Shown here piece after piece: positions 41,537 to 64,000 of a stretch of 64,000 nucleotides of DNA. Numbering within the stretch: position 1 is the first letter of the stretch; every line of letters begins with the position of its first letter. The position numbers and the translations under genes were made by a program. Source of the DNA: Gammaproteobacteria bacterium (GTDB lineage Bacteria; Pseudomonadota; Gammaproteobacteria; Pseudomonadales; Halieaceae); contig JANSYN010000017.1 in assembly GCA_024742415.1 (NCBI GenBank), forward strand, positions 1 through 64,000, given 5' to 3'. The notes beneath the pieces were generated by a model that did no database searches, had not been told where the DNA came from, and saw nothing but the letters and a program-made list of their open reading frames with translations.

Positions 41537-41760
41537 ACATCCCCCTTCGTGTCCGCTCGGAGTAGATAGCGGCCCAGTGGGTAAGTGTAGTCTAAATGAC
41601 AGCCTGTAGGCGAAAGCACTCGAAGCAAAGTTCTGCAAAGCCATTGCTGTTTACACTACGGGTAAGATTAGCCCGCTCTCTGAGCCAAATGACTCTCGAT
41701 AGCGCAGGACACGCAGTCGCCCGCTCTAGCGCTTGGTAACTGGTTGTATCTAGGGGAAAT

Positions 41761-41806
41761 TGGTGGGCCGTGCTGGATTCGAACCAGCGACCAATTGGTT
41801 AAAAGC
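41761..41806 (-). other. 3' half of tRNA-Lys(UUU), likely integration attachment site
   Basis: Read on the minus strand (41806 to 41761), this matches the tRNA-Lys gene from the anticodon loop through the anticodon stem, variable loop, the T-arm with GGTTCGAATCC, the acceptor strand ACGGCCC and the CCA end. The sequence upstream of the anticodon (past 41806) is not tRNA: the D-arm and 5' acceptor strand are absent. Such 3'-half copies are the usual attachment core of tyrosine-recombinase elements. Orientation implies that the intact tRNA-Lys lies at the far end of the element, beyond position 64000. Confidence 0.85.
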
Positions 41807-41940
41807 CCGATCTGCGCAGCTCAATCTCGACATTCGAAAAAGCCGCGAAAGACGAGCTTGAAAGCGGCGTATTCAGCGGCACCAAGGGTGCGGGCGGTGT
41901 CAGCACCGCTCTGAGCCGCATTGCCGAGAACCTGCGCGGA

Positions 41941-42642
41941 ATGGAAAAGTCCATATTGGAGGCAGGGGCTTCTGGGGCAAATGATGCCCTAGAGGCTGGC
42001 AAGCACCTCGAGACCATGCGCGCAGCGATGCGCTCGAAGAAGTCTCTGCCAGAGAAGATTGATGGGATAGCAGCCAGCGACGTTAAGCTCAAAGCCGTGC
42101 ATTCACGCATGGATGTCTCCAGCATTGCACAGTCAACGCTCCGCCTCTTAAACAACCTGCCTCACGAGACGAACGTCGTATCAGATTTCTCGCGCAATGC
42201 GTCCGTGAGGTCTAGCCAGCGCGACGCGCTTGCCAAACTTGGAGGCTACCTCGAAGAGACGAGTCATGCGCTGCAGCAATCACTCGAGATGTATTCTGAA
42301 CAGGACCTGCCCACGCTTGCCCCTTTCGAGCGAATTTCGGGTAATCGAGCCATCATGGTCATGTGGCGTGAAATCCCGGCGGCCTGGGCTGCCGGTATAA
42401 CGATCGATTTCATGCCTTACTTCCTGCTGTTTTATCTGTTCATCTCTGCCAGCGGCATGACGCCCGAGCAACATCGTGCTGCGCGCGCACGCGCCATGAC
42501 TATTGATGAATACATCGATCATACAGATGTCGCTTCCGGCATTAAGCAATACCGTACACATCCCGATGACGTTGAAATCCTGATGCGCAAGAACAAGAGG
42601 CGCGAGGACCATCGCGAGCAAGCCGAGCGTGAGGACGAGTGA
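41941..42642 (+). CDS. Unknown membrane protein, probably 5'-truncated
   Basis: The first usable start is the ATG at 41941, but the same frame is open and coding-like back to 41803 (containing KAAKDELESGVF and GGVSTALSRIAENL), without an ATG, GTG or TTG, and it meets a stop inside the tRNA-derived site (41800-41802). The N-terminus is therefore probably lost. The remaining 233 residues have a helical coiled-coil-like region, a hydrophobic segment near 150-175 (WAAGITIDFMPYFLLFYLFI) and a charged tail. It ends overlapping the next gene's start (GTGATG), so the three genes to 43502 form an operon. No family was recognised. Confidence 0.6.
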   Translation: MEKSILEAGASGANDALEAGKHLETMRAAMRSKKSLPEKIDGIAASDVKLKAVHSRMDVSSIAQSTLRLLNNLPHETNVVSDFSRNASVRSSQRDALAKLGGYLEETSHALQQSLEMYSEQDLPTLAPFERISGNRAIMVMWREIPAAWAAGITIDFMPYFLLFYLFISASGMTPEQHRAARARAMTIDEYIDHTDVASGIKQYRTHPDDVEILMRKNKRREDHREQAEREDE

Positions 42643-42866: not shown

Positions 42867-43502
42867 ATGAAACTTATAGACATTCTGGTGGGCGTATCAC
42901 TGATATCCCTAATTCAACTCACGCCCGGACCGGCAAGCGCGAGTGAGTATGAGACCATACGATTCTCCGAGAATGATGTCGTTTGCACCTTTGCTGCCCG
43001 TCCCAACTTTGGCCGAGAGGTCCGGCTCAGCAAACCCAGTCGCGAGGCACGCAAGTCCGTGGAGTGGCTATCGGACTACGTGGGTATTCACCCGAACTTT
43101 CAGATCATGGCTGGTAAGTTTGAAAGTGGTGCTAGCCCCGTCGCATTCGCCGCTATACACGATAGTGTGCGGTTTATCGTGTATGACGTGGACATTATGT
43201 ACCAATCCGCCAAGAACACCGTGACGTGGCGAGATCTTGGCGTGATGGCGCACGAGATGGGTCATCACATCAGCGGCGCGACGACGCTCGGAACCAAGTC
43301 TCCGCATGACGGGGAGCTTGAAGCTGATCGCGCTGCCGGTCATCTGCTTCGCCTGCTGGGTGCAAGCGTTGAGCAGGCTCTAAGCATGGCGAGTGTGTTT
43401 TCCAGTGAGGGGTCTCTCACTCATCCGCCCAGGCAGGAGCGGGAAGACGCCATCATCGACGGGTGGGAGAATGCCCAGGCGCTGCTGCAGGCAACACGCT
43501 GA
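42867..43502 (+). CDS. Exported M48-like zinc metalloprotease
   Basis: Signal peptide (cleavage near ASAS, residue 26) and a small gluzincin-type domain: zinc motif HEMGHH with H129, E130, H133, and a third-ligand candidate E152 in GELEADRAAG, the pattern of M48/Ste24 and IrrE-like proteases. Total 211 residues, so only the minimal catalytic domain. Third gene of a three-gene operon with two membrane proteins. Within an element, such proteases may process cell wall or conjugation proteins, but that is inferred. Confidence 0.78.
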   Translation: MKLIDILVGVSLISLIQLTPGPASASEYETIRFSENDVVCTFAARPNFGREVRLSKPSREARKSVEWLSDYVGIHPNFQIMAGKFESGASPVAFAAIHDSVRFIVYDVDIMYQSAKNTVTWRDLGVMAHEMGHHISGATTLGTKSPHDGELEADRAAGHLLRLLGASVEQALSMASVFSSEGSLTHPPRQEREDAIIDGWENAQALLQATR

Positions 43503-43508
43503 GCAATG

Positions 43509-44123
43509 CTACAACGCACCGGTATAGAGATGCTCGATCTCGGTGGGCTGGATACATAGATAGTCCATGGTTTGGCGCTCGCTTGAGTGCCCAAACGCAA
43601 CGCTCAAAAGCGCAGTCGGCTGATTGAATGTCTTGCGCTGATGATATCCCCAGGTCTTTCGTAAAGTATGAGATCCGTAGTTGCCGTCAAGTTGGGCCAT
43701 TGAGCACCAATGCTTGACCATGGCGGTGAGCGTTGTGGCGGTGAGTGCCTCGCGGGTTTTAAAGGATTTAAAGAGCGGTGCTTCTGGCTCAGGCTCGGGG
43801 TGAACGCGCAGCCAGCCTCGCAGCGCTTTGATCACATTCTCGTTCAGCGTCGCGGCGCGATACTTCCCATTCTTGCTTTGTTTGATCTCTAGCCTGTCCC
43901 CGGCATTGAGGTGGGCAACCTGACCCACCTTGATAGAGACCAGCTCGTTAGCCCTATACGCCGTATTTATCCCGAAGGTGAATAAACACAGATCACGCGG
44001 ATTGTTGCGCAATGCGTATTTGATGTTCTCGATGGCTTTCAGGTCGGTGATAGGAGCAACCTTGATGGAGGAGCCCTTCTTCGGGTGGTTCGGGTTACGG
44101 ATAGAGATATTCGCTTTGCTCAT
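43509..44123 (-). CDS. Short tyrosine recombinase / integrase
   Basis: Catalytic core of a phage-type integrase: R57 in AYRANEL, H152 and R155 in SHTLRKTWGY, H179 in GHSSERQ, and the nucleophile Y188 in MDYLCI. At 204 residues it has the core but only a short N-terminal arm-binding part, like FimB-type recombinases and the small integrases of some islands. It probably drives integration and excision at tRNA-Lys. Its start lies 8 bp from one arm of an 18-bp inverted repeat, which may be its operator. It ends 6 bp from the convergent metalloprotease gene. Confidence 0.9.
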   Translation of the reverse strand: MSKANISIRNPNHPKKGSSIKVAPITDLKAIENIKYALRNNPRDLCLFTFGINTAYRANELVSIKVGQVAHLNAGDRLEIKQSKNGKYRAATLNENVIKALRGWLRVHPEPEPEAPLFKSFKTREALTATTLTAMVKHWCSMAQLDGNYGSHTLRKTWGYHQRKTFNQPTALLSVAFGHSSERQTMDYLCIQPTEIEHLYTGAL

Positions 44124-46065: not shown

Positions 46066-46578
46066 CTAGTGGTTCCAGAATATATGCACTTCGTCGTGCG
46101 CGGTTTCGATCGTGTAGACATCGCCGCCCAATTCCATGTCACGGCCCATTTTCTCGTAATCGATGTAATACTCCAGATGTGCAGGGACCTCGCTTGTATC
46201 TTCGGTCAACTGCTGGGCGTAGTCCGCAAGGCTTTCGTAAACACCTGCATAGCTATCCTCGAGCGCTTTTCCGGCGTCGTCTAGATCCCCACACCAGTGA
46301 TCTAGCATTGCTGCGCCAAGCTCGCCGTGCTCATCGATAAACAGAGCTTTCTCACGTGCACTTTCAAGCCCTTCATATTCACTCAAGCGGACTGAACCAA
46401 ACCCCTCGTAATCGTGAATGGCGTATTCTTCTGCCATCTCTTCGGGGCTGCTTTTCAGCATTTGATTTACAGCTTCCCAGATGTCATCCATCTCGCCGCA
46501 CGCATCTACCCAGACCCCGTGTAACTTGCCATTGTTGTAGGCTGCCAAATCCGCCACATATATTCTGATCTCTTCCAT
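46066..46578 (-). CDS. ardA: Antirestriction protein ArdA
   Basis: DNA-mimic protein that inhibits type I restriction enzymes and protects incoming single-stranded or newly transferred DNA. The sequence from MEEIRIYVADLAAYNNGKLHGVW through the acidic EYAIHDYEGFG and LDHWCGDLDDA segments to the C-terminal HIFWNH is the ArdA pattern; it is very acidic, as a DNA mimic should be. At 170 residues the length is normal. An AAGGAG ribosome site precedes the ATG at 46578; the open frame extends further upstream but loses coding character. Its leader is rich in palindromes. Confidence 0.9.
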   Translation of the reverse strand: MEEIRIYVADLAAYNNGKLHGVWVDACGEMDDIWEAVNQMLKSSPEEMAEEYAIHDYEGFGSVRLSEYEGLESAREKALFIDEHGELGAAMLDHWCGDLDDAGKALEDSYAGVYESLADYAQQLTEDTSEVPAHLEYYIDYEKMGRDMELGGDVYTIETAHDEVHIFWNH

Positions 46579-47060
46579 CGTCCTTCTCCTTAATCGTTCC
46601 TGAGGTTCAAAAAGCGCTTTTTGCGCTGCGCATGAACCTCTGGCGACTAGGCCGACTAGGCGGGAGTGAAAAAATCCAGAAGAATTGCGGAGGGTCCGCC
46701 CAGCCAAAGGCGAATATGGGTGGAAACCGTCATTCTTCTTGATTTTGAGAGGATGCAATGCCTCTCGTTCACTTTGCTGTTTACAAGACCGGGGAATTGC
46801 GGGGTGTCCCCGCTAGAAAGGGGTGCCTGAAAACGCGCTCAAGCGGTTGAAGCAGGGGAAAGGCCTTTCCCCAAATATTCATCTCGGACTATCTTGCAGT
46901 TCTTCTATTATCCTAAAAACGAAGCGTTTCGTATTCATTCAGCACAATTGCTCCCAGTGTGCGTCAGCCGCTGGCTATACCGGAGACCTTTCATTCGATG
47001 TGCGGTGGGCGTCGAAAGGTTCCGATAGCCGGAGCCTCCTTACGAAAGGGAGCAATAACT
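46579..47060. other. Palindrome-rich leader between ardA and the small divergent gene
   Basis: No gene in 482 bp. Inverted repeats cluster: an 8-bp stem GAGGTTCA/TGAACCTC (46602-46609 and 46633-46640) around a 14-bp palindrome AAAAAGCGCTTTTT (46609-46622); GAGAGG/CCTCTC (46747-46766); GCGGGG/CCCCGC (46799-46813); and an 18-bp perfect palindrome GGGGAAAGGCCTTTCCCC (46855-46872). Such regions upstream of ardA in conjugative elements hold single-strand promoters or transfer origins. The plus-strand gene at 47061 has a GAAAGGGAGC ribosome site just before it. Confidence 0.6.
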
Positions 47061-47760: not shown

Positions 47761-48648
47761 ATGACAGAGCATTCCCAGACATCTGATGAAGATGCCAATC
47801 CACGCGACCCAGCCGCAGAGCTGTCAGGCCAGCTGATTCTCGTAAGCACATTTGACGTGCCGAAAATGGACTGCCCTTCAGAGGAACAGATGATCCGAAT
47901 GGCGCTGGAAGATATCGAGCCACCGGTAATCTTGAATTTTGATACGGCCAATCGACATGTTCGCGCGTTTCATGCTGTAGATGTGTCTGAAATCGACAAG
48001 CGTCTATCGGCGCTCGGACTGGGTGCGAAATTGATCGATACGCACTCGGCACAAGCCAGTGAAATGGATCACGCGGAAGCTGAAGAGCAAGCATCGAACA
48101 TAAAGCAGGCCCGCATACTCAAATGGCTTCTGACAATAAACGCACTCATGTTTGGGCTGGAGCTTTGTATCGGTGTAATTGCACAGTCCACCGGCTTAAT
48201 CGCAGATTCTCTCGATATGTTTGCCGATGCTGCAGTATATGGCGTCGCTCTCTATGCTGTCGGGCGCAGCGTCACCATGAAAGTTCGCGCAGCGCACCTG
48301 GCGGGCTGGCTACAGGTTATTCTCGCTCTAGGTGCGTTGAGTGAAGTCATACGGCGATTCCTGTTTGGCAGTGATCCTGGCTCAACACTCATGATGTCAT
48401 TTGGAGTTGTTGCGCTTATTGCCAACGTGCTGTGCCTGATACTCATTGCGAAAAGCAAGGATGAAGGCGCACATATGAAGGCAAGCTGGATCTTTTCTGC
48501 CAACGATGTGATCGCAAATATCGGTGTAATCGTGGCAGGGTTTCTCGTGGCACTTACAAACTCCAACATACCCGATTTATTGATTGGTCTGATCATTGCG
48601 ATGATCGTGCTAAACGGCGGGCGGCGAATTCTGAAGCTTCAATCATGA
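47761..48648 (+). CDS. CDF-type cation transporter with N-terminal HMA-like domain
   Basis: Inner-membrane metal exporter. Residues 29-95 resemble a heavy-metal-associated domain with the motif KMDCPSEE (M36, C38), though the usual second Cys is missing. After an acidic linker, five to six TM helices start at about 121. The CDF metal site reads DSLDMFAD (D149, D152, D156), with a second site SANDVIAN in a later helix in place of the usual HxxxD. This subgroup is often controlled by CadR/PbrR-like proteins, as here. Start at 47761, 29 bp behind the MerR promoter's -10. Confidence 0.78.
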   Translation: MTEHSQTSDEDANPRDPAAELSGQLILVSTFDVPKMDCPSEEQMIRMALEDIEPPVILNFDTANRHVRAFHAVDVSEIDKRLSALGLGAKLIDTHSAQASEMDHAEAEEQASNIKQARILKWLLTINALMFGLELCIGVIAQSTGLIADSLDMFADAAVYGVALYAVGRSVTMKVRAAHLAGWLQVILALGALSEVIRRFLFGSDPGSTLMMSFGVVALIANVLCLILIAKSKDEGAHMKASWIFSANDVIANIGVIVAGFLVALTNSNIPDLLIGLIIAMIVLNGGRRILKLQS

Positions 48649-50010: not shown

Positions 50011-51351
50011 ATGTACCCTTTTCCCAATGCGCCGTGGCACGGCGCGGGAGCTAATGCTTGCATATCATTGCGGTTTTTTCTCCCAACTCTGTTTGCGCTA
50101 CTGCTTACCAGCGCAGCAAATGCCGAAACATCGCACTCGGCCCTTACGCTTTCCAGCGCGCTCGAGCGCACTTTGGACAACAGTCCCTCTCTCAAACTCT
50201 ACGTATTCCGCAAGGATGCGTTGCAGGGCGCGGCGTATACGGCCAATCTCCGTCCTGGCTACGAAATCGAATTGGAAGCCGAGAACTTCGCAGGCTCCGG
50301 CGATACCGAGGCCTTTGATAGCGCCGAGCTCACCGTTTCTCTGTCATCAGTGATGGAACTTGGTGACAAGCGGAATGCCCGAAGCGGTCTCGTAACAAAT
50401 ACGCGCTCAATGCTCGATACACAGTTGAGGCTTGAATCCCTGGCGGTACTGGCGGAAGTGACCCGCAGGTTCGTAGAGACGCTGAGCACACAAGCCCGCC
50501 TGGAGCTGAACAAAGAGGCGCTGAAATTGGCCGAGGAGGCTGCGAAAAGCGTCCAGAAGAGGGTGTCTGCCGGAGCCGCTTCCGCAGCAGAGGCAAAACG
50601 CGCTCAAAGCGCACTGGCCATGGCAAGGCTAATGCAATCATCCGCAGAGCAGCGCTTTGATACTTCAAAGGTCTCACTGGCCGCATTATGGGGGGAGAGC
50701 ATCCCTTCGTTCGATAGTGTTGAAGGCGACCTCTTTAACTTCGGCGCCGACATTTCCTTAGAAGAACTCTACATAGCGTTGGAGAACAATCCCGCTATTG
50801 CCATCTATGCCGATGAGGAGCGCGTTGCCAACGCGGAGATCCGACTGGCCAGATCTCAATCAAAAGCCGATCTGGGTTGGTCGTTCGGGATCAGACGAAT
50901 CCGGGAGACAGATGACACTGCGCTTGTTGCGGGGCTAAGCATGCCGCTGTTTTCCGAGCGACGTAACGCTGGAGAGGTTTCCAGACTACGGGCGCAGAAA
51001 AACTCTATTGCCGTAGAACGTGAAGCCGACATTCTCAAGTTGCGCGCACTACTCTTCAGCGCCTACAGCGCACGCCAACAGGCCATCGTCACCGTGGAGC
51101 AATTGCAGACAAACGTGATCCCTGCCCTGGAGGGCGCCTTACGGCAAACGCGTCAGGGCTACCAGCGCGGTCGCTTTAGCTACCTGGAATACATCTCTGT
51201 CGCGAAAGAGCTTCTGGAATCCAAGCTGATGCTCATAGAGACGGCAGCTGCAGTTCTTACCTATGGCGCAGAGATTGAACAGCTAAGCGCTAGCGCCTTA
51301 ACCGCCAATCCATCAACGCCTATTGGCCAAGGTCCGGGAGAAAAACAATGA
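50011..51351 (+). CDS. czcC: CzcC-like outer-membrane factor (TolC family)
   Basis: Forms the outer-membrane duct of the tripartite pump. Signal peptide (cleavage near ANAET, residue 38), then long amphipathic helices (for example FVETLSTQARLELNKEALKLAEEAAKSVQKR) and repeat halves typical of TolC; length 446 is normal. The stop overlaps the czcB start by 4 nt (ATGA), so translation is coupled. Confidence 0.87.
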   Translation: MYPFPNAPWHGAGANACISLRFFLPTLFALLLTSAANAETSHSALTLSSALERTLDNSPSLKLYVFRKDALQGAAYTANLRPGYEIELEAENFAGSGDTEAFDSAELTVSLSSVMELGDKRNARSGLVTNTRSMLDTQLRLESLAVLAEVTRRFVETLSTQARLELNKEALKLAEEAAKSVQKRVSAGAASAAEAKRAQSALAMARLMQSSAEQRFDTSKVSLAALWGESIPSFDSVEGDLFNFGADISLEELYIALENNPAIAIYADEERVANAEIRLARSQSKADLGWSFGIRRIRETDDTALVAGLSMPLFSERRNAGEVSRLRAQKNSIAVEREADILKLRALLFSAYSARQQAIVTVEQLQTNVIPALEGALRQTRQGYQRGRFSYLEYISVAKELLESKLMLIETAAAVLTYGAEIEQLSASALTANPSTPIGQGPGEKQ

Positions 51352-52286
51352 TCAATATTCAGACATTTCGAAAACTTGGTGCCGCCTGCACACTCACGTT
51401 TTTATCTGTGTTTGCGCTTACGCTCCCCGCTTTGGCAGAGCAGGAGTCTCACGAAGGTGAGGAACATGAGGGTGCTCACATCGAGCTCTCCGCAGAGCAG
51501 ATAGAGCATGCAGGCATCACTCTTGAGAAAGCGGGACCGGGAATGCTCTTCGAGACGTTGAAAGTCTACGGCAGCGTAAAGCCGAACCCCGAACATTCAC
51601 AGAGCATAACCGCGCGTTTCGAGGGGCAGATCACGTCATTCAACAAGAGCATTGGGGATACCGTTAAGCGTGGCGAGAAACTCGTCACGATAGAGGCCAA
51701 CGATTCCCTGCAGCGCTATAACTTGATCGCATCTATAGATGGTGTAGTCACTCAAAGACAGGCCAATGTAGGTGAGCAAACCAACGGTAGAACCCTGCTT
51801 AAAATCGATGATCTGTCCAATGTGTGGGTTGAGTTATCGCTATTTCCTAAGGATCTGGAAGCAGTGAGTATTGGGCAACAGGTCCGGGTGCAAGATAAGC
51901 AAGGTGCAATCTTAGCCGAGGGCGAGATTAGCTACATTTCGCCTATTGCGCAGACAGACTCGCGCTCGGTTACCGCCCGCGTACCCCTGGAAAACCGGCA
52001 ACGAACCCTTATACCGGGATCGTTTGTCGTCGGACAGATCACACTCTCACAGGACCGTGTGCCACTTCTCATCGATAAGCAAGCCATTCAGATTGTAGAG
52101 GAAAGATCTGTAGTTTTTGTGAAAGGGCATGAAGGCTTTGAGCCCCGAGAAGTGGAGCTTGGTCGCTCCGATGGCTTATCCATAGAGGTATTAGATGGAC
52201 TGCAAGTCGGTGAAACCTACGTCGCTGCAAACAGCTTTGTCCTCAAATCCGAGCTTGGTAAGGAGGACGCTGAACATGGCCACTAA
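51348..52286 (+). CDS. czcB: CzcB-like periplasmic adaptor
   Basis: Membrane-fusion protein linking the RND pump to the outer-membrane factor. Signal peptide (cleavage near ALAEQ), a His/Glu-rich N-terminus (EQESHEGEEHEGAH) that can bind zinc, an interrupted hairpin, the lipoyl-like segments NKSIGDTVKRGEKLVTIEAND and IASIDGVVTQRQANVGEQTN, and a beta-barrel C-terminus. At 312 residues it is somewhat shorter than most CzcB proteins. A 69-bp gap separates it from czcA. Confidence 0.87.
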   Translation: MINIQTFRKLGAACTLTFLSVFALTLPALAEQESHEGEEHEGAHIELSAEQIEHAGITLEKAGPGMLFETLKVYGSVKPNPEHSQSITARFEGQITSFNKSIGDTVKRGEKLVTIEANDSLQRYNLIASIDGVVTQRQANVGEQTNGRTLLKIDDLSNVWVELSLFPKDLEAVSIGQQVRVQDKQGAILAEGEISYISPIAQTDSRSVTARVPLENRQRTLIPGSFVVGQITLSQDRVPLLIDKQAIQIVEERSVVFVKGHEGFEPREVELGRSDGLSIEVLDGLQVGETYVAANSFVLKSELGKEDAEHGH

Positions 52287-52355
52287 TCAAATCGTCAACC
52301 ATTTCCATTTCGAGACAGGGCCCACGTCCACCTTTATGCAAGAAGGAGTCTCGCG

Positions 52356-55300
52356 ATGATCGACAAATTGATAATGTTTTCGCTTACACGGCGATGGCTG
52401 ATTATGTTTCTTGTACTCATCGTCGCCGCACTTGGTGTTTGGAATTATCAGAAACTGCCCATAGACGCCGTTCCGGATATCACTAACATCCAGGTACAAA
52501 TCAATACCGAGGCCCCTGGATACTCTCCCTTGGAAGTGGAGCAACGGGTGACCTATCTCGTAGAACTTGCGATCACAGGTTTGCCCTACGTCGAAAGTAC
52601 GCGCTCAATCTCTCGCTATGCACTTTCTCAGGTCACGGTGGTATTCGAGAAGGGCACGGATATTTACTTCGCAAGAAACCTGATAAACGAACGGCTCCAG
52701 CAAGCCAAGAGCGAGATGCCTTCCGGAATTGAGCCTGTCATGGGCCCGGTTGCCACAGGACTGGGCGAGATCTTTCATTACGCGGTGCATGCCGAGCCAG
52801 ATGCAGTGCAAGACAACGGAGAGCCCTATGATTCCACAGCGCTTAGAACGCTACAAGATTGGGTTATTAGGCCGCAACTACGTCTTGTGCCGGGGGTCAC
52901 GGAGATAAACACTATTGGAGGATTTGAGAAAGAATTCCATGTCACACCTACCGCCGCCCAGCTGCTGGCATACGGACTCACTTTTGACGATCTCGTAGGC
53001 GCTCTGGAGGCCAATAATGCCAATGTCGGTGCAGGCTATATCGAGAAGAATGGAGAGCAATATCTCATTCGCGCGCCCGGTCAGGTCGCGGACCTGTCCG
53101 AGATGGGAAACATTGTCGTAGCAACAAGAGATGGCCTCCCTATTCGCTTGAGCGACGTTGCCGATATTGGGTACGGAAAGCAGCTTCGTACTGGCGCGGC
53201 AACACTAGACGGCAAGGAAACGGTTTTAGGCACAGCGGTGATGCTGCTCGGAGGCAACAGTCGCACAGTTTCGGAAGCTGTGGCAAGCAAGCTGTCAGCG
53301 ATAAACAAGACCTTGCCCGAAGGCGTTGTGGCCGAGCCGGTCTACAACCGCACGGTTCTTGTCGACAAAACCATCTCGACTGTACAGACAAACCTGGTTG
53401 AGGGGGCTCTTCTCGTGGTCGTCGTACTATTGGTGATGCTGGGCAATATTCGAGCCGCCCTGCTTACGGCCATGGTTATACCGCTATCAATGCTCATGCT
53501 GATGACCGGTATGGTACAGACAAAGGTGAGCGCAAACCTCATGAGCCTGGGTGCTCTGGATTTCGGCCTGATTGTCGATGGCGCAGTCATCATCGTTGAG
53601 AATTGTATTGCCAGGCTGGCAGCCAGACAGCATGAACTTGGACGGCTGCTGAAACGTAGTGAGCGCTTCGAGACAGTGTTTGCGGCCACGCGCGAAGTCT
53701 TTACACCCAGCCTCATCAGCGTATTGGTCGTGATACTCGTGAATCTGCCAATACTTGCACTCACTGGCGTCGAGGGAAAGATGTTCACGCCGATGGCTAT
53801 GGCCGTCATCATGGCGCTACTTTCCGCACTCGTGCTCTCCCTTACATTCGTACCCGCTGCTGTAGCGCTGCTACTTACGGGCCGGATTCAAGAGAAAGAG
53901 AACTTTATTGTGCGAAGTGCAAAGCAGGTTTATAGACCGGTTCTGGAAGCTGCTCTTAGCCTGCGAATCCCCGTCCTGCTTGGCGCACTGGTTTTCATCG
54001 GTGTTTGCGTCGGTATTGCGAGCAGGATGGGCACCGAGTTTGTCCCCAATCTCGACGAGGGCGATGTAGCCATTCAGGCGCTGCGAATTCCAGGCACAAG
54101 CCTCACGCAGTCTTTGGATATGCAGTTCCAGCTAGAAAAGGCAATTCTGGAACTTCCTGAAGTAAAGACCTACTTTTCTCGCGTGGGCACAGCCGAAGTC
54201 GCCTCTGATCCAATGGGCCCAAACATCTCCGATGGCTATGTAATGCTCAAACCGCGAGCTGAGTGGCCGGAGCCTAACAAAACCAAAGCACAGCTTCTTG
54301 AAGACATGAAGGCCAAGCTCGCTTTACTGCCTGGTAATGCATTCGAGATTAGTCAGCCGATACAGCTGCGCTTCAACGAGCTGATTTCAGGTGTCCGCTC
54401 AGATCTCGGTATCAAGGTGTTTGGTGATGATCTTGATCAACTTCTGGCATCCGGATCAGAGATCGCCGCCGTACTAAATGACATAGAAGGGGCGGAGGGC
54501 GTAAAAATCGAGCAAGTCGCTGGATTGCCAATTTTGTCCGTTCAAGCCGACAGAGAGGCCCTCTCTCGCTATGGCCTCAACGTTGCCGAGCTTCAGGAAG
54601 TGGTCGCAGCCGCCACCGGCGGAGAAGAGGCGGGCCTGGTGTTTGAGGGTGATCGCAGGTTTGCCATTGTTGTCCGGCTTGATGAGTCCCTTCGCAACGA
54701 TCTGGCAGAGCTGGAGCGCTTACCTATTCCGCTTCCCGGCGGCCAGTACGTTCCCATCAGTGAAGTTGCGAGCCTAGAGCTGGCTCCAGGTGCCAATCAG
54801 ATATCTCGGGAAAATGGTAAGCGGCGTCTGGTCGTCAGTACGAATGTTCGCGGGCGCGACCTTGGAGGTTTCGTTGCTGAGGCGCAGCGCCAGATCGAAG
54901 ACAAAGTCTCGATGCTTCCAGGATACTGGCTAGGATATGGCGGCACCTTCGAGCAACTCCAGTCGGCATCGCAACGACTGAGCGTGCTCGTGCCTGTCAC
55001 ACTGGTCATGATCTTCGCGCTGTTGATGGTGACGTTCGGATCTGCCAGGGACGCTGCTCTCGTATTCAGCGGCGTACCGTTAGCTCTGACTGGTGGTGTC
55101 ATTGCTCTGTGGGCCCGCGATATACCCTTATCCATCACCGCTGGTGTGGGGTTTATCACACTCTGCGGCGTATCGGTGCTCACAGGCGTCATGATGGTAT
55201 CCGCGTTTAGAGATCGACTCCGACAAGGAATGGATATTGACGAGGCTATCCGTAGCGGGGCAATGCTACGACTGCGCCCTATCCTTATGGTCGCTTTGGT

Positions 55301-55487
55301 CGCCGCTCTGGGGTTCCTTCCGATGGCACTTAATACAAGTACGGGTGCTGAAGTACAGCGCCCGCTTGCGACTGTGGTGATTGGCGGGATCATATCGTCC
55401 ACACTATTGACTCTACTGGTACTGCCAGGGCTTTACCTCATGGTAAATCGGAGCACTGACTTTACCGAATCCGATCATGATAGGTAG
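52356..55487 (+). CDS. czcA: CzcA-type heavy-metal efflux RND pump
   Basis: Proton-driven exporter of Zn, Cd and Co from periplasm or cytoplasm. The acidic proton-relay residues sit in DFGLIVDGAVIIVENC at D402, D408 and E415, the same numbers as in Cupriavidus CzcA. The C-terminal half keeps SQPIQLRFNELISGVRSDLGIKVFGDD, the Czc-type (not Cus-type) version of the periplasmic segment. Length 1043 is close to CzcA's 1063, and 12 TM helices are expected. An AAGGAG site precedes the ATG. It is followed by a long palindrome and then the CDF gene. Confidence 0.92.
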   Translation: MIDKLIMFSLTRRWLIMFLVLIVAALGVWNYQKLPIDAVPDITNIQVQINTEAPGYSPLEVEQRVTYLVELAITGLPYVESTRSISRYALSQVTVVFEKGTDIYFARNLINERLQQAKSEMPSGIEPVMGPVATGLGEIFHYAVHAEPDAVQDNGEPYDSTALRTLQDWVIRPQLRLVPGVTEINTIGGFEKEFHVTPTAAQLLAYGLTFDDLVGALEANNANVGAGYIEKNGEQYLIRAPGQVADLSEMGNIVVATRDGLPIRLSDVADIGYGKQLRTGAATLDGKETVLGTAVMLLGGNSRTVSEAVASKLSAINKTLPEGVVAEPVYNRTVLVDKTISTVQTNLVEGALLVVVVLLVMLGNIRAALLTAMVIPLSMLMLMTGMVQTKVSANLMSLGALDFGLIVDGAVIIVENCIARLAARQHELGRLLKRSERFETVFAATREVFTPSLISVLVVILVNLPILALTGVEGKMFTPMAMAVIMALLSALVLSLTFVPAAVALLLTGRIQEKENFIVRSAKQVYRPVLEAALSLRIPVLLGALVFIGVCVGIASRMGTEFVPNLDEGDVAIQALRIPGTSLTQSLDMQFQLEKAILELPEVKTYFSRVGTAEVASDPMGPNISDGYVMLKPRAEWPEPNKTKAQLLEDMKAKLALLPGNAFEISQPIQLRFNELISGVRSDLGIKVFGDDLDQLLASGSEIAAVLNDIEGAEGVKIEQVAGLPILSVQADREALSRYGLNVAELQEVVAAATGGEEAGLVFEGDRRFAIVVRLDESLRNDLAELERLPIPLPGGQYVPISEVASLELAPGANQISRENGKRRLVVSTNVRGRDLGGFVAEAQRQIEDKVSMLPGYWLGYGGTFEQLQSASQRLSVLVPVTLVMIFALLMVTFGSARDAALVFSGVPLALTGGVIALWARDIPLSITAGVGFITLCGVSVLTGVMMVSAFRDRLRQGMDIDEAIRSGAMLRLRPILMVALVAALGFLPMALNTSTGAEVQRPLATVVIGGIISSTLLTLLVLPGLYLMVNRSTDFTESDHDR

Positions 55488-55557: not shown

Positions 55558-55589
55558 GAACAATAATATTCGCCGTGAGGAGAAGCACC

Positions 55590-56474
55590 GTGGCCGGACA
55601 CAATCATGCACATCACCACGACGCGAGTTCTGAGCGCATCGGCTATGCGTTTTTTCTAAATGTCACATTTACGATCATCGAGTTTATCGGTGGATACCTG
55701 ACCAACAGCACCGCAATTATGGCAGATGCAGTGCATGACCTAGGCGATAGCCTTTCGATTGGCAGCGCATGGCTGCTAAATCGACTCGGCAAGAAAAACG
55801 CGGATGATGAGTTTACCTATGGATATCGACGGCTATCGCTGCTTGGCGCACTGCTGAACGGCATTGTCTTACTTGTCGGCTCTATCTGGGTGCTAACTGA
55901 AGCGCTCCCTCGCCTGGCCAATCCTGTGATGCCGGTGGCCGAAGGTATGCTGGCGCTGGCAATTCTGGGCGTGAGCGTTAACGGCTACGCGGCCTATAAA
56001 CTCAGTCACGGCACCACATTGAATGAGCGTGTCTTGAACTGGCATCTGCTTGAGGATGTACTGGGATGGGTTGCGGTGCTTATCGTATCGATTGTTCTCC
56101 AATTCAAGCATTGGCCCATTCTTGACCCGGTTTTATCCATAGGCTTCACGCTGTTTATCTTGTTTAACGTATTCAGAAATCTGATTGCCACGATGAAGCT
56201 CTTTTTTCAGGCGGTTCCAGACAAAGAACTTTTGGATAAGATCAGGCAGTCACTCATTTCTATTCGGGAGGTAGAAGAAGTGCACCACTTACATCTATGG
56301 TCACTTGATGGCGAAAACCATGTGTTGACGGCGCACGTCGTCGTGGCACCCTCCATTGACAGCGAGATACACAAACACCTGCGCGCGCAGATCCATCAAG
56401 GACTAGTCGAGTTCAATCTGAATCATACTACCATTGAAATAGAGTTTGAGGACGAGGAATGTCGCGACGCTTGA
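55590..56474 (+). CDS. czcD: CzcD-like cation diffusion facilitator
   Basis: Inner-membrane Zn/Cd/Co exporter, proton antiport. A His-rich start (NHAHHHDASS) precedes six TM helices. The CDF metal sites are present: HDLGDS (H, D) in the second helix region and HLLEDVLGW (H, D) in a later helix, plus a C-terminal cytoplasmic domain from about residue 200 with HHLHLWSLDGENHVLTAHV. GTG at 55590 follows GAGGAG; an open frame extends 15 bp upstream. Placed as the last gene of the czc set, separated from czcA by the palindrome. Confidence 0.87.
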   Translation: MAGHNHAHHHDASSERIGYAFFLNVTFTIIEFIGGYLTNSTAIMADAVHDLGDSLSIGSAWLLNRLGKKNADDEFTYGYRRLSLLGALLNGIVLLVGSIWVLTEALPRLANPVMPVAEGMLALAILGVSVNGYAAYKLSHGTTLNERVLNWHLLEDVLGWVAVLIVSIVLQFKHWPILDPVLSIGFTLFILFNVFRNLIATMKLFFQAVPDKELLDKIRQSLISIREVEEVHHLHLWSLDGENHVLTAHVVVAPSIDSEIHKHLRAQIHQGLVEFNLNHTTIEIEFEDEECRDA

Positions 56475-57570: not shown

Positions 57571-58058
57571 CGTTTTTCTCCTTTCTCGGTGACTAATGTT
57601 GTGTCCACATGCTGGGTTGAGCTGGCGCAATGATTTTCCCAAGGCCACAATCGCCCCATTGCCAGGAATGTGAATGAAGCAGACCAAGTGATTAGTAGAA
57701 ACCCATTGAGAGCTTCCATGGCTGTGATGAAACGAATGTGCCCCTGAGGTTCGATATCGCCCAGACCGAGCGTGGTGTAGATTACGCCTGAGTAGTAGAG
57801 ATAGCTCATCGCGTCTGTAACCGCCGCGCCCTCGAAAACGCCCAAATCAAGAAATGACACTGAGATACCATAGGTAAAGGCATAGATTCCAATCTCGGCG
57901 ATGTGGGCAAGGAAGAGCGTCACGACGATTACAAGCACCTGAGCCTGCGTCGATAGCCCAAGCCGTGGACCCCTTGAACCGAGCCAAAGCAGCACGCGGT
58001 AGTGAAATAGAAATGTCAGCGAAACCAGTCCAAATGCGAGCAGCATGGCGGCTATCAT
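57567..58058 (-). CDS. Two-TM ion channel family protein
   Basis: 163 residues with the layout of a K+ channel: an N-terminal helix region, a pore loop YYSGVIYTTLGLGDIEP and a following helix. The filter reads TLGLGD rather than TVGYGD, so selectivity is uncertain. Its start overlaps the stop of the RND pump (ATGA), and its stop overlaps the next start, so it is part of the operon. A channel in a copper/silver operon is unusual; it might balance charge or potential during metal stress. Confidence 0.75.
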   Translation of the reverse strand: MIAAMLLAFGLVSLTFLFHYRVLLWLGSRGPRLGLSTQAQVLVIVVTLFLAHIAEIGIYAFTYGISVSFLDLGVFEGAAVTDAMSYLYYSGVIYTTLGLGDIEPQGHIRFITAMEALNGFLLITWSASFTFLAMGRLWPWENHCASSTQHVDTTLVTEKGEKR

Positions 58059-61000
58059 GGTGCTGCTCCCACGACACCATCTTCTGACTCCGGCTCGGAT
58101 TGATCGGCAATAACCCGCCGCCTTTCCTGGAATTGGAGAACGAAGCTATAAATCACCGGCAGCACCAGAAGATTGAGTATCATGACTGTTAGCATGCCGC
58201 CTAACATGGGAGCGGCAATTCGGTGCGTAACATCTGATCCGGTACCGCTACTCAACATAATCGGTATCAGGCCAGCCATGGTAGAAATTGCCGTCATAGC
58301 CACTGGTCTAACCCGTTTTGAAGTAGCGCTCAATACTGCGTCTCTGACCTCTTCTAATGTGAGACGCCTACTGCTTTCCTTTCTGCGCAGGGCAATCTCG
58401 GTGTCGATGAAACTCAAAACCAGAACCCCAATCTCTGCCGCCATTCCGGCGAGCGCGATAAATCCGACTGCTACAGCAACAGACATGTTGTAGTCGTTAA
58501 AGTAGATGAGCCATATGCCTCCTATCAGTCCAAAAGGGATAGACATCATCACAACTACAGGCTCGATGACATTTCTGAAGTTGAAGTACAGCAGCAAGAA
58601 GATGATAAAGAGCGTGGCTGGCGCAACGATGCTCAGCCGTTTAGCCGCTCTTTCCATGTACTCGAACTGCCCTGACCATGCGAGTGTATAACCAGCCGGG
58701 ACTTTCACCTGCTGATTGATTACCTCTTTGGCCTTGCTCACAAAACCACCAATATCCGAGGTTGATATATCCACATAAATCCACGCATTGGGCCTTGCAT
58801 CCTCGCTCTTTATGACTGGCGGCCCGCGCGTGTAGTTGATGTCAGCCACTAGAGAGAGGGGTACTTGTGCCCCTGTTGGGGTGGGTATAAGTACGCGCTT
58901 GAGCGTCTCCATATCATCCCTCAGCTCTCTGGGATAGCGCAGATTTACTGGATATCGCTCAAGGCCTTCGACCGTTTCGGTAATGTTCATACCGCCGATG
59001 GCGCTTTGAATCACATCCTGCACTGCGCCAACAGTTAACCCATAGCGCGCCGCGCTTTCTCGGTGAATGTCGAAATCCAGGTAATACCCACCAACAGCGC
59101 GGTCACCGAAGGCCGATGTCGTTTCGGGAAGTGTTTTCATGGCCTGCTCGATATCCTGCGAGACCTCCTGCAGGACGTTGAGATCCGGGCCCGATACCTT
59201 TATACCAATAGGCGTTTTGATGCCGGTGGATAGCATGTCGATACGGGTTTTTATCGGCATAGTCCACGCGTTTGCGAGACCGGGAAATTGGATTGCAGCA
59301 TCCATCTCGCTCATCAATTCTTTCGTTGTCTTGTTCGGATCTGGCCACTCGTCTTTGGGGCGCAATCGAACCGTGGTTTCAATCATCGCCAGCGGCGCAG
59401 AATCCGTCGCCGTTTCTGCTCGACCCACTTTGCCAAACACGTGATGGACTTCCGGGAATGTCGTGAGGATCTTATCGGTTTGCTGTAATAGCTCTTTGGC
59501 TTTGGTAATGGAAATACCGGGGAAGGTGGTCGGCATATAGAGGATATCGCCCTCATCCAGCGGAGGCATAAACTCGCTGCCGAGCTTTGAGTAGGGGTAA
59601 TACGTTGCCCCAAGGAGCGCCAGGGCACACACGACGGTTACGACGCGCCAGCGCATCGCCGTTTTCAGAACCGGCCGGTGAAGCGCATGAAGCGCTCGAT
59701 TTAGCGGGTTCTTATGTTCCGCAATGATTTTGCCTCGCAGGAAGTAGCCCATCATTACCGGTACCAGCGTAATAGCTAGTATCGCGGAGGCCGCCATTGC
59801 ATAGGTCGCAGTAAACGCCAAGGGGCTGAAAAGCCTGCCTTCTTGTGCTTGCATCGTAAAAATGGGGAGGAACGATACAGTAATCACAAGAAGGGAGAAA
59901 AACAGCGCCGGGCCGACCTCCTGACAGGACTCGCCGATCGTCTTCCAGCGTTCTTCAATCGTGAGCTCACTACCCTTGTCATCGCGTGCCATGGCCAGTC
60001 TGCTATGGGCGTTCTCGACCATAACAATCGCGCCGTCCACCATAGTCCCGATGGTAATGGCGATGCCGCCGAGCGACATGATATTGGCATTCAAGCCCTG
60101 AAGACGCATGACAATGAACGCCATCAACACGCCCAGCGGCAAGGTGATAATAACGACGAAAGCAGAGCGGGCATGCAGAAGGAACAAGATGACCACAATG
60201 CTGACGATCACCAATTCCTGCACGAGTGAGGTATTCAGGCTTTTGACTGCGCGCTCAATCAGATCGCCACGATCATAGACCGGGATGATCTCAACACCAT
60301 CGGGGAGTCCTGGCTTGAGCTCCTCGAGTTTGTCGCGCACCGCCTGAATCGTTGCCAGCGCATTTTCACCAAAGCGCATAATGACAACGCCGCCCGCGAC
60401 CTCGCCCTCGCCATTCAGATCGACGAGCCCGCGCCGCAGCTCGGGGCCAATCTGGACGCGGGCAACATCCCGCAAGCGGATTGGGGTGCCATTCTGATCC
60501 ACGGAAACTGGTATCGCGTTAAGGTCTTCTATGGACTGGATATACCCAAGACCGCGCACCATGTACTCGGTCTCGGCCATTTCCACTAATCGACCACCCA
60601 CGTCTTTATTTGAGGTCTTGATCGCCATTCGGACTTTGTCGAGCGAGATGTTGTAGCGAAGTAAGGCATTCGGATCGACCTCGACCTGGTACTGTTTGAC
60701 GTACCCGCCGACAGAGGCCACTTCTGATACGCCATTGACGGTCTGCAACGGGTAGCGCAAGTACCAATCCTGAAGCGATCGAAGCTCTGAGAGGTCGTGT
60801 TTACCGGTTCTATCGACCAACGCATATTCATATACCCAGCCCACGCCCGTTGCGTCGGGGCCAAGTGTGGGTGTAACCCCCTGGGGCAGTCGCCCACTCA
60901 CGTAGTTGATTGACTCCAGCACGCGAGAGCGCGCCCAATACATATCCGTTCCATCTTCAAAGATGATGTATACAAACGACAGCCCAAAAAACGAATAGCC

Positions 61001-61249
61001 GCGAACGACTTTGGTATCAGGGACAGCAAGCATGGAGGTCGTCAGCGGATAGGTGACCTGGTCCTCAACAACTTGCGGAGATTGGCCGGGATATTCAGTG
61101 AAAATGATGACTTGAACATCCGACAGGTCTGGTATCGCATCCAGAGGCACATTCTTGTAGGCGAATATGCCGACCGCCCCGATGATAAACGTGGCTACGA
61201 GAACCATGAACCGGTCGCGAAGCGAGGCATTGATAATCGCCTTAATCAT
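58055..61249 (-). CDS. cusA: CusA-type Cu/Ag efflux RND pump
   Basis: Exports monovalent Cu and Ag. Proton relay D405 in IGTMVDGAIVMVEN; the methionines M572, M622 and M672 (the last in TMPIKTRIDMLSTG) align with the E. coli CusA triad (M573, M623, M672). That triad is missing in the Czc-type pump of this window, so the two pumps should differ in substrate. Length 1064 is normal. Overlaps cusB by 8 bp and the channel gene by 4 bp. Confidence 0.92.
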   Translation of the reverse strand: MIKAIINASLRDRFMVLVATFIIGAVGIFAYKNVPLDAIPDLSDVQVIIFTEYPGQSPQVVEDQVTYPLTTSMLAVPDTKVVRGYSFFGLSFVYIIFEDGTDMYWARSRVLESINYVSGRLPQGVTPTLGPDATGVGWVYEYALVDRTGKHDLSELRSLQDWYLRYPLQTVNGVSEVASVGGYVKQYQVEVDPNALLRYNISLDKVRMAIKTSNKDVGGRLVEMAETEYMVRGLGYIQSIEDLNAIPVSVDQNGTPIRLRDVARVQIGPELRRGLVDLNGEGEVAGGVVIMRFGENALATIQAVRDKLEELKPGLPDGVEIIPVYDRGDLIERAVKSLNTSLVQELVIVSIVVILFLLHARSAFVVIITLPLGVLMAFIVMRLQGLNANIMSLGGIAITIGTMVDGAIVMVENAHSRLAMARDDKGSELTIEERWKTIGESCQEVGPALFFSLLVITVSFLPIFTMQAQEGRLFSPLAFTATYAMAASAILAITLVPVMMGYFLRGKIIAEHKNPLNRALHALHRPVLKTAMRWRVVTVVCALALLGATYYPYSKLGSEFMPPLDEGDILYMPTTFPGISITKAKELLQQTDKILTTFPEVHHVFGKVGRAETATDSAPLAMIETTVRLRPKDEWPDPNKTTKELMSEMDAAIQFPGLANAWTMPIKTRIDMLSTGIKTPIGIKVSGPDLNVLQEVSQDIEQAMKTLPETTSAFGDRAVGGYYLDFDIHRESAARYGLTVGAVQDVIQSAIGGMNITETVEGLERYPVNLRYPRELRDDMETLKRVLIPTPTGAQVPLSLVADINYTRGPPVIKSEDARPNAWIYVDISTSDIGGFVSKAKEVINQQVKVPAGYTLAWSGQFEYMERAAKRLSIVAPATLFIIFLLLYFNFRNVIEPVVVMMSIPFGLIGGIWLIYFNDYNMSVAVAVGFIALAGMAAEIGVLVLSFIDTEIALRRKESSRRLTLEEVRDAVLSATSKRVRPVAMTAISTMAGLIPIMLSSGTGSDVTHRIAAPMLGGMLTVMILNLLVLPVIYSFVLQFQERRRVIADQSEPESEDGVVGAAP

Positions 61250-62735
61250 GATTCATGCCCCCGTGGATATCCTTGTCCATCTGGTGGTCTGTCTCCATAT
61301 CCATTTCATGAGACATGCCAGTATGATCAGAGTGGTCACTTTGAGTGTTGGCGTCGCCTGCCTTGAGGGCGTCCATCATCTTCGCGGTGGCTTCGCGCAA
61401 TTTTGACTCCGAATCAACGAGGAATTGCGCAGATGTGACCACTTCCTCTCCAGGTCTTACTCCGTCAATCACTTCTATGCGACCGTTTGATTCAACGCCA
61501 AGCCTGACTACTCTGGGTTCAAATTTTCCGGGCTCTCTCACAACAAATATCTGCGGATTTCCTCCTGAGCGAACCACGGCTTCAGCCGGTACGACGACAG
61601 ATTCCTCGCGGGTATCCGACAATATTCTGACCTCGGAGAACATGTCCGGGCGTAGCAACAAGTCAGTGTTGTCAAAAACCAGTCTCACTTTGGTGGTTCT
61701 GGTCTTGGCTTCAGAATAGGGGTAGATGTAGGCAACTTCGCCTCTGAAGGTTTTCCCAGGTACGGACGTGAGGGTCATTTCGACCTCATCGCCAACATTC
61801 ACCCACGGGATTTCGTTTTCGTAAATGTCCGCCAACACCCACACTCGCCTGAGATCCGCCAGCATATACAGCTCCGTCTGAGGGCTCACATGTTGGCCCT
61901 GGCGCGCCCCGATACGCAGCACAGTCCCATCGACTGGCGAATGGATATGTATGGTCTTCTTTATTTCTCTGGTCTGTTCGAGCTCGCGAATCTGGTGCTC
62001 GGGCACATCCAGGAACTGAAGCCGTTCACGGGAGCTCTTCGCGAGATCCTTAGCCCCCTGACGGATTTCCTCAATCGGGCTTTCACCGAGCGCTTTGAGA
62101 TTGTTCAAAGCAAGCAGATACTCCTGCTGCGTTGACACCAGCTGGGGCGAATAAATACTGAGCAGTATGTCGTCCTTCGTGACGGTTTCTCCGGTTTTAT
62201 CGACCCGCAGTTCTTCGATCCATCCCTGGACCTTTGGGTGAAGCCGGGCCATACGTTCTTCATCAAAATCAACGCGGCCAACGGTGCGGATGGTTCGGCT
62301 TATCGATTCGGATTTCGCAGTGGCCGTTCTTACCCCAATGTTCTGGACAATCACAGGATCAATGCTCACCGTCCCAACAACATCGCTGTTCTCCCCTTCG
62401 GCATAGACGGGCACGTAATCCATGCCCATCGAGTCCTTCATCGGTGTGGGAGAGGTCACAGATGGATTCATTGGGTTTCTGTAGTAGAGTATTTCACGCT
62501 CTGCCTTTGGCTTTTCTTGTTCCGCATAGACCGGGATGTAATCCATACCCATCGAGTCCTTCGCTGGTACCGGCGATGTGACATTTGGATTCATGGGGTT
62601 ACGGTAATACAGGGGTTCTTCCGCGTTCTCGGCAGCCACCGGCTGGCCCTGGCTGTGCCCCTGGGAGAGGAAGTGCCCTGCCGCGAGACCAACCCCAAGC
62701 ATCATGATCGCTACAATTGCGGTTGTCTTATTCAT
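61242..62735 (-). CDS. cusB: CusB-like periplasmic adaptor with duplicated metal-binding motif
   Basis: Membrane-fusion adaptor. After the signal helix (about 5-20) the N-terminus carries two nearly identical copies of a heavy-metal-binding domain motif: residues 43-70 and 84-111, each with YYRNPMNP and KDSMGMDY and several Met. Most homologues have one. Then follow the hairpin, lipoyl and beta-barrel regions (IHSPVDGTVLRIGARQGQHV). The last 30 residues form a His/Met/Asp-rich tail (HTGMSHEMDMETDH). Met-rich sites fit Cu(I)/Ag(I) capture. Overlaps the pump gene and cusC by 8 bp each. Confidence 0.9.
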   Translation of the reverse strand: MNKTTAIVAIMMLGVGLAAGHFLSQGHSQGQPVAAENAEEPLYYRNPMNPNVTSPVPAKDSMGMDYIPVYAEQEKPKAEREILYYRNPMNPSVTSPTPMKDSMGMDYVPVYAEGENSDVVGTVSIDPVIVQNIGVRTATAKSESISRTIRTVGRVDFDEERMARLHPKVQGWIEELRVDKTGETVTKDDILLSIYSPQLVSTQQEYLLALNNLKALGESPIEEIRQGAKDLAKSSRERLQFLDVPEHQIRELEQTREIKKTIHIHSPVDGTVLRIGARQGQHVSPQTELYMLADLRRVWVLADIYENEIPWVNVGDEVEMTLTSVPGKTFRGEVAYIYPYSEAKTRTTKVRLVFDNTDLLLRPDMFSEVRILSDTREESVVVPAEAVVRSGGNPQIFVVREPGKFEPRVVRLGVESNGRIEVIDGVRPGEEVVTSAQFLVDSESKLREATAKMMDALKAGDANTQSDHSDHTGMSHEMDMETDHQMDKDIHGGMNHD

Positions 62736-64000
62736 AGATAGATCCCTTTCCTACTGCGGCTTCCAGACGCGCAAGCGCCTGATTGGCCTCACTGACTGAT
62801 TTCCAGTACAAGAGCTCATAGTTAAACAATGTCATTTGGCTTCTTACCAGATTGAGAAAATCGACTTCGCTGACCTGATAGGCGGCAAGCATTGACTGAA
62901 CCGTCTGCTCAGCTTGAGGAATAATCCCTTTCGCGAACAACTCATACTGTTCTCGCGATCTTTGGTAATCTGTTGCAGCACCGGCAATGGCGGCTCTCAC
63001 CACGCCCTTTTCGTCAATGAGTGCGTACTGGTTTCTAGCCAGTTCAGCGGTTTTCTGAGAGATCGCACGCGATTGCTTGCGGCCCGCGTAGAGCGGTATC
63101 TTGGCTCCGACCATGACAGAGAAAAGGTCTGCGCGAGAGCCTCCCATGAAAGGCGGATTGTCCCCGGTTCTTTCTCCGTACATTACCCCGAGCTTGAAGT
63201 CTGGATACCTGTCCCTCTTGGCCAGCGCTAACCGTGAGCGGGCGGCTTCGACTTGCGTTTCTTTTACTTTCAGCTTTGGTCGCGCATCGTCGGCAAGCTC
63301 GAACAACGCTGCTTCGCTGAGAATGTCCGGCATTTCTGGATCTTGGGGTGCGATAAGAGAAATCTGGTCGCTGGCCGGTCTGTCCATGAGCGTATTGAGC
63401 TGGATGGCCTGGTGCTTTCTCAGGGCCACGAGCTTGATACCTTGATCCATCAGCTTGGACAGCTCCAGTTGCGCGAGCAAAATATCCTGCTGTAGGCCCT
63501 TCCCTGTTTCATACTTGGTCTTCGCTACCGAGATAAACTGCCGCAGGAGCTCCTTGTTTTTCTCAAGTGTTTCAAGCGCTCGGTCGAGGTAATAGATCTG
63601 CCACCACGCTGTTTTTACAGAATTGGCGAGACGCACGCGCATTTCGTCGACCGAATATCCAGCAGCGACTGCGTCGTATGTCGCGGCTTCTTCCTTGAGA
63701 TCCAGCTTTCCGGGAAACGGAAATACCTGGCTGAAACCGAACTGGAGTTGCGTCATACCTTCCTGGTCCCGATCAAAGCTGTCGGTCGGAAAGTTCATCG
63801 CGTTGAGGTTAACCATAGGGTCCGGCAGGGTGCCCACCTGGCTAGGCACTTCCTGCAGCGCTTCATAACGCATCTGCATGGCGGCCAAGCTTGGATTATC
63901 CTCAAGAGCAACAACTACAGCAGCTTGTGCCGTAAGGTCCGATGCTCCTCGATTACTCGGCGAAGCCCCCGCGCTAATTGGCACAAAAAGCGCCAGGCAC
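62728..64000 (-). CDS. cusC: CusC-like outer-membrane factor (5' end outside window)
   Basis: TolC-family duct of the Cus pump. The frame runs to the window edge; residues just before the GTG at 63984 read CLALFVPISAG, the end of a signal peptide, so the true start lies beyond position 64000. The body has TolC helices such as LGTLPDPMVNLNAMNFPTDSFD and RSREQYELFAKGIIPQAEQTVQSML. First gene of the minus-strand cusCBA-channel-DUF5676 operon; no CusF or CusRS is visible in the window. Confidence 0.88.
   Translation of the reverse strand, partial: CLALFVPISAGASPSNRGASDLTAQAAVVVALEDNPSLAAMQMRYEALQEVPSQVGTLPDPMVNLNAMNFPTDSFDRDQEGMTQLQFGFSQVFPFPGKLDLKEEAATYDAVAAGYSVDEMRVRLANSVKTAWWQIYYLDRALETLEKNKELLRQFISVAKTKYETGKGLQQDILLAQLELSKLMDQGIKLVALRKHQAIQLNTLMDRPASDQISLIAPQDPEMPDILSEAALFELADDARPKLKVKETQVEAARSRLALAKRDRYPDFKLGVMYGERTGDNPPFMGGSRADLFSVMVGAKIPLYAGRKQSRAISQKTAELARNQYALIDEKGVVRAAIAGAATDYQRSREQYELFAKGIIPQAEQTVQSMLAAYQVSEVDFLNLVRSQMTLFNYELLYWKSVSEANQALARLEAAVGKGSIYE

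Follow-up and report, generated by a model that had tools for sequence, protein, structure and literature searches.

A tRNA-Lys island with metal-efflux and phage-defence genes, probably trapped in the chromosome after loss of its far arm

The window analysed here, a stretch of 64,000 nucleotides (the first 64000 bases of the 81,700-base contig C14), was found to hold the left part of a genomic island that, with high probability, was formed by a tyrosine integrase, here termed intR, at tRNA-Lys(UUU) and was then probably trapped by the loss of its far arm and by an insertion sequence (IS). Two copies of the tRNA, an IS join between two contigs, a composition step, a far arm that was not found and a cut gene were directly observed. 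In the proposed course of events, tRNA-Lys(UUU) would have received a circular element in its anticodon loop through intR; the 3' half carried by that element would have completed the tRNA at the intR end (now on contig C26), and the 3' half of the chromosome would have been displaced to the far end (window 41761-41807). The far end would have lost its arm when the integrase recombined the half-tRNA end with a secondary site in an island gene, the intervening piece being deleted, and an ISL3-like IS would have entered the intR end and separated the near arm from the core. Both the order of these two events and the loss of mobility are what we infer from the present arrangement. The kind of element is well known, and the new point is a left end that lacks its arm, for which an origin is proposed below. 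Loss of its ends makes an island a permanent part of its host, and such a loss is rarely readable.

The displaced tRNA half and the extent of the island

The tRNA-Lys(UUU) 3' half lies on the minus strand at 41761-41807, runs from the anticodon loop to an encoded CCA, and is identical in 47/47 positions to C26:190-236, part of the intact tRNA-Lys(UUU) at C26:190-265 on a separate contig of the same genome. Identity with the intact gene starts 2 bases before the anticodon loop, at tRNA position 30 (the anticodon being at 34), and ends at the CCA. The 5' half was absent next to it, ARAGORN reported no tRNA gene over the window, and the Rfam tRNA model scored 23.4 bits at this place, below its gathering score of 29. 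A search of the 27-contig genome with a 101-base query gave only two matches at E <= 0.001, namely the window half and C26:190-265, and chance is ruled out for an exact match of 47 bases. An earlier reading of the window from its sequence alone had described a minus-strand tRNA-Lys 3' half without a 5' half, which the exact match to the gene on C26 bears out; it had the start of the fragment right but gave its length as 46 bp (41761-41806), one base too short.

Contig C14 ends at position 81700 within an ISL3-like IS, and C26 starts within the 3' end of the same IS. In this genome, the 5' end of the IS was found on C14 and C25 only, and its 3' end, with all 141 bases identical, on C26 and C23 only, other relatives being weaker or shorter. 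An 8-bp target duplication, AACGAAAA, is present at C14:81552-81559 and again at C26:142-149, and the other IS copy with these ends, which links C25 to C23, has its own duplication, CTAGGATT, on both. Since the ends occur on two pairs of contigs and the 8-mers match within each pair, the assembly points to two IS copies and a single consistent pairing of their ends. The element has inverted ends and the 8-bp target duplication that is typical of the ISL3 family. The interior of the C14/C26 copy is unassembled; in a related 110-aa fragment on C5, the ISL3 transposase domain PF01610 was detected with an E value of 3e-18, NF033550 remaining under its cut-off. Three pieces of the IS 3' end were also seen in a row at C5:37376-37707 (L007/L008).

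By this join, the island consists of C14:41808-81559, the IS and C26:142-189, amounting to 39,800 bp without the IS when both target duplications are counted; its portion in the window is 41808-64000. Target duplications can in this way close an island that is split over two contigs. The mean G+C content falls from 0.593 on the left side of the half-tRNA to 0.513 within the island and is 0.598 over C26:201-20000, and the tRNA 5' half from C26 joined to the left flank of the window gave a complete tRNA-Lys (the reconstructed empty site). The G+C step and the complete tRNA from the joined outer flanks agree with the earlier claim that the half-tRNA is the left end of an island. It had also been predicted that the cus genes would be followed, past the right edge, by an intact tRNA-Lys(UUU) sharing this core, and such a gene was found there, at C26:190-265, by way of the IS join. 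Given that join, fragment and intact gene are both on the minus strand, in the same orientation, with the island between them. Two details were wrong: the core does not precede the intact tRNA but is part of the tRNA itself, and the 3' half in the window, which had been taken for a copy made at that end, would by the established mechanism be the chromosome's own displaced 3' end, the element's copy having restored the gene.

In the parts of its description drawn on here (PMC4383910), the Islander rule is based on an intact tRNA and a displaced fragment, and anticodon-type sites are counted. The present island resembles the islands described there in its intact tRNA with a 3' fragment in the same orientation, its internal integrase and its crossover in the anticodon loop (class A there), and at 39,800 bp it passes the length filter of 2-200 kb; it is unlike them, as far as those parts of PMC4383910 go, in that it spans two contigs and in that its fragment end has no far arm of the type found in its sister islands.

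The integrase, its sister islands and their arms

The tyrosine integrase intR (C14:80415-81575, PF00589; start most likely at 80415) lies just past the window, beside the tRNA. Matches to intR were found at E <= 0.001 in 94/390 genomes of the order, many of them weak. In a set of 41 intR loci (11 from one search and 30 from the order-wide search, with the own locus included), 28 had a tRNA gene at most 600 bp from the integrase end, and all 28 were convergent with it, with none on the same strand and nine isotypes represented. The remaining 13 had no tRNA in reach; three of them have fewer than 600 bases left, and the own contig end is among the 13, its intR being convergent with tRNA-Lys by the IS join. 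intR overlaps a preceding frame of 122 aa that recurs in 15/19 of the related stretches compared; no name was obtained for this frame from Pfam or NCBIfam, and we take it for the putative excision factor.

The predicted structure of intR has strands at residues 10-13, 16-22 and 30-34 followed by a helix at 40-61, with a mean pLDDT of 80.7, a pTM of 0.52 and residues 356-386 under 50. The IS starts at codon 382 of 386, within this low-confidence tail and after the invariant tyrosine 337, which we take to be the catalytic tyrosine. The best PDB fold matches were to lambda integrase (TM about 0.5, rmsd 16-18), and because of the pTM and of the rmsd in these matches, the placement of the domains in the model is uncertain. 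With that qualification, the predicted N-terminal strand-strand-strand-helix before the core-binding and catalytic domains is like that of lambda-type integrases with an arm-binding domain, as these are described in the relevant part of PMC8138268, although intR is unlike lambda Int in being only 15-16% identical in the fold match. Several sister islands carry repeats at either end, which adds to the likeness to the lambda type in that part of PMC8138268, the arms being putative.

A convergent adjacent tRNA was present in 20/22 integrase stretches, and a far 3' half was found in six of the 20: G336 (Arg, 46.1 kb), G434 (Pro, 8.9 kb), G083 (Met, 8.5 kb), G027 and the own contig C12 (Arg, 11.4 kb each) and G308C5 (Arg, 15.9 kb). 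With more DNA, a far 3' half was also found for G308C2 (Lys, 102 kb), and a tRNA-Lys search of G001 gave a fragment with the same kind of neighbourhood. In the first pass, a far copy was not found at 14/20 loci, in 12 of which less than 15 kb of the island side was covered; at G287, it was not found within 73.7 kb. The sister tRNA fragments end at or just past the anticodon loop, like that of the window. The tRNA-Arg island of the own genome (within C12:25000-84999) shares 11,515 bp at 99.9% identity with an island on G027:C17, from another genus, and this common stretch starts with the far core's first base, which looks like the recent transfer of a live element. The genome would hence hold a probably live (C12) and a probably dead (Lys) island of one integrase family, which can be compared side by side.

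The sister far ends, seven in number with C12 counted together with G027, were picked by their tRNA letters and not by their arms. A TAA was found 15 bases past the 46-base core in 5/5 far cores compared, and a tandem repeat with a period of 11 starts 91-94 bases past the core in 4/5. In G336, G434, G027 and G083, the far repeat recurs near the integrase end with 16-20 of 20 letters alike, where the best of 20 shuffles reached 15 or 16; the likeness of near and far arm was not above shuffles in G308C5 (13/20) and in the own island (14/20). The own-type repeat, at up to 2 mismatches, occurs three times in the genome (in the own near arm at C14:81536-81553 and once at each end of the C12 island), against two occurrences of a reversed control pattern.

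A far arm was visible by inspection at 7/7 sister far ends, and a profile of the seven, with each held out in turn, recovered six (26-58 bits) and missed G434. Since G434 was missed when held out and the arms of G308C5 were unmatched above shuffles, the sequences indicate that arms can diverge. At the window end the profile gave nothing, and no plus-strand score on C14 exceeded 2.5 bits. A second model, R1, was made from six far ends with G027 omitted, C12 serving as the left-out control. It detected a single far arm in the own genome, at C12:37322-37422 (27.3 bits; 150/401 candidates scored), and, unprompted, one in G065 (65.3 bits) behind a tRNA-Met 3' half, and it gave no match on either strand of the window or of the C14 stretch L003 up to an E value of 10. 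Judged against the sister islands, a window end without the far arm that they carry is an abnormal attachment end. With its far arm missing and the IS standing between near arm and core, the island has probably become trapped in the chromosome, and the excisable circle implied by the sequence-only reading is doubtful, as the window end has no far arm of the sister type.

In being integrated with damaged attachment ends and retained cargo, the island is like the grounded, or excision-defective, prophages reviewed in PMC6379469, to the extent that they are covered in the part of the review used here. It is unlike the prophages of that part in being a metal and defence island, with no phage structural gene among the island frames scanned.

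Origin of the left end

At the edge of the core, a plus-strand reading frame (41803-42642) is truncated at its 5' end. From the first codon past the core, it matches residues 146/147-416 of 435-aa Rhizobiaceae plasmid proteins with 21-25% identity. A stop codon within the core closes the frame on its upstream side and the homology starts in mid-protein, so that roughly the first third of the gene is gone, corresponding to about 146 N-terminal residues in comparison with two 435-aa homologues. When residues 1-150 of two homologues from Rhizobiaceae were searched against C14 and C26:1-20000, the best E value was an unconvincing 1.1, and a full 435-aa homologue revealed no second copy in the own genome (next match at E 0.085). 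In the uncut homologues (L046, L047), the following genes match Clp protease weakly; the next gene of the window (42867-43502) showed no similarity to its counterpart in L046.

The junction of the cut gene with the tRNA sits at the usual crossover point and may be read as made by the integrase with a secondary site. A deletion of this kind at the far end has close to an even chance of being the actual mechanism. That the integrase itself grounded its own island, by a one-step deletion of the far arm at the crossover point, with the IS splitting the near arm from the core, is a tentative proposal that we hold with slightly less than even confidence; the same level applies to this proposal taken jointly with the suggestion that the tandem repeat of period 11 at both island ends is an arm code used throughout the family. 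If the former is true, metal and phage-defence genes were fixed in the chromosome by the integrase itself, and if the latter is true, the arm code makes such losses readable from sequence.

The junction could instead be older than the arrival of the island, if a faulty excision in a former host took along the end of the gene and integration here followed. This would give the same junction, and homologues of the cut gene were found on 76 Rhizobiaceae plasmid records and, at E <= 0.001, in none of 139 other genomes of the family and 368 other genomes of the class. It is nevertheless unlikely, though not strongly so: it requires integration without a far arm, and at the identity of the compared homologues no donor can be named.

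Another origin would be by tandem elements, the half-tRNA stemming from an older element and a later intR element having lost its far end by internal deletion; in that case the window would show the regular end of the older element. Three recombinase genes or pieces are indeed present in the island, namely intR, int2 (C14:78222-79418) and a partial minus-strand tyrosine recombinase of 204 aa (43509-44123), which consists of the catalytic part (PF00589, E 5.9e-17). The two closest relatives of int2 (G201 and G419, 43%) lay at none of the intR places listed from the order-wide search. The tRNA-Lys site is, moreover, a hotspot, with 3' fragments in the congeners G001, G006, G009 and G011 in a genus comparison that covered other species only, one genome per species. 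Yet int2 and its 102-aa neighbour (L003:16219-17758) lie beside intR, and the same pair adjoins an intR relative in G488, from another family, so that the pair is possibly part of one mobility module with intR; a scan of C14 that asked for 17 matches in the first 20 letters gave no second tRNA-Lys 3' fragment; and the truncation of a gene at the edge of the core would still call for an explanation. Tandem elements are for these reasons distinctly unlikely. The endpoints of other congener tRNA-Lys 3' fragments (L166:4262, L079:1613, L167:4700) differ from that of the window, and because of this difference several integrase types may use tRNA-Lys.

It is also very unlikely that the island is intact and its far arm merely diverged past recognition. 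Arms do vary between islands, those of G308C5 were not matched, and one of the seven sister ends escaped the profile, but the own near arm is of the same type as those in G027, G263, G243 and C12, and the place of the far arm is occupied by coding sequence whose homology to the 435-aa protein begins with the codon immediately after the core. A wrong contig join with a half-tRNA unrelated to the island is barely conceivable, for although the IS is a repeat and its gap is unassembled, the target duplications match in both contig pairs, intR loci are convergent with a tRNA in 28/41 cases, and the predicted empty site was obtained.

The flank outside the island and the cargo

The sequence just outside the island (41700-41760) may be interpreted as the flank that once lay downstream of tRNA-Lys. 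The 40 nt after the CCA resemble the downstream flank of tRNA-Lys in the congeners G004 and G017 (0/500 shuffles as good in each), and shuffles as good numbered 3/500 for the G009 fragment flank, 5 for G015, 15 for G005 and 31 for G003, with nothing notable in the other 11 of the 17 flanks compared, all values being uncorrected for the number of tests. The island side of C26 resembles the G010 flank and the G001 fragment flank (0/500 shuffles each), the next best being G013 (25/500). Fifteen congener tRNA-Lys loci were available, 14 with at least 1 kb behind the tRNA and one (G009) with only 6 bases, and the left-flank genes of the window were directly behind tRNA-Lys in 0/14. In G004, two window genes (5001-7381) have homologues (45% and 56%) in the same order 2.8-5.0 kb behind tRNA-Lys, and in G005 there was a PQQ-type match of 32-34%. 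Because congener gene order gives little, the assignment of the left flank rests on composition and the 40-nt similarity. Behind tRNA-Lys in G010 (L086:2200-2294), a stretch that by eye resembles the last codons of an intR-type gene is perhaps a scar left there by an earlier island; tblastn of intR at L086 gave no match at 1e-12. A candidate IS next to the tRNA-Lys of G015 seems to be no more than the remnant of an IS end, an MBOAT search found homologues that were uninformative on the integration site, and a scan of viral contigs gave a single relative (23%).

The cargo includes two Cus-type efflux sets. The first, on the plus strand (50011-55487), consists of CusC-, CusB- and CusA-like genes at 50011-51351, 51348-52286 and 52356-55487 (PF02321, PF16576 and PF00873), and the second, on the minus strand (58055-64000), of CusA (58055-61249, PF00873), CusB (61242-62735, PF16576) and a CusC that continues past the window edge (PF02321); TIGR00914 (CusA/CzcA) was above its cut-off in both. 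Two plus-strand genes encode cation diffusion facilitator proteins, one at 47761-48648 (PF01545, E 5.3e-15) and one with a ZT_dimer domain at 55575-56474 (PF01545, PF16916), and an ArdA antirestriction protein is encoded on the minus strand at 46066-46758 (PF07275, E 3.9e-43). Among the 33 distinct island frames given to Pfam, in which short frames were partly covered, there were no relaxase or conjugation genes of the kind that marks an integrative conjugative element. Also carried are a Fic protein and a P-type ATPase of the copper type (CopA-like), the latter accompanied by a regulator of the MerR type. With PADLOC models, a class I Argonaute, which is short at 504 aa, and an adjoining TIR partner were identified at C14:68895-71796 (L003:6895-9796), a pair that, we presume, recalls the SPARTA type, and Hachiman HamA and HamB were identified close to it (L003:11487-15751).
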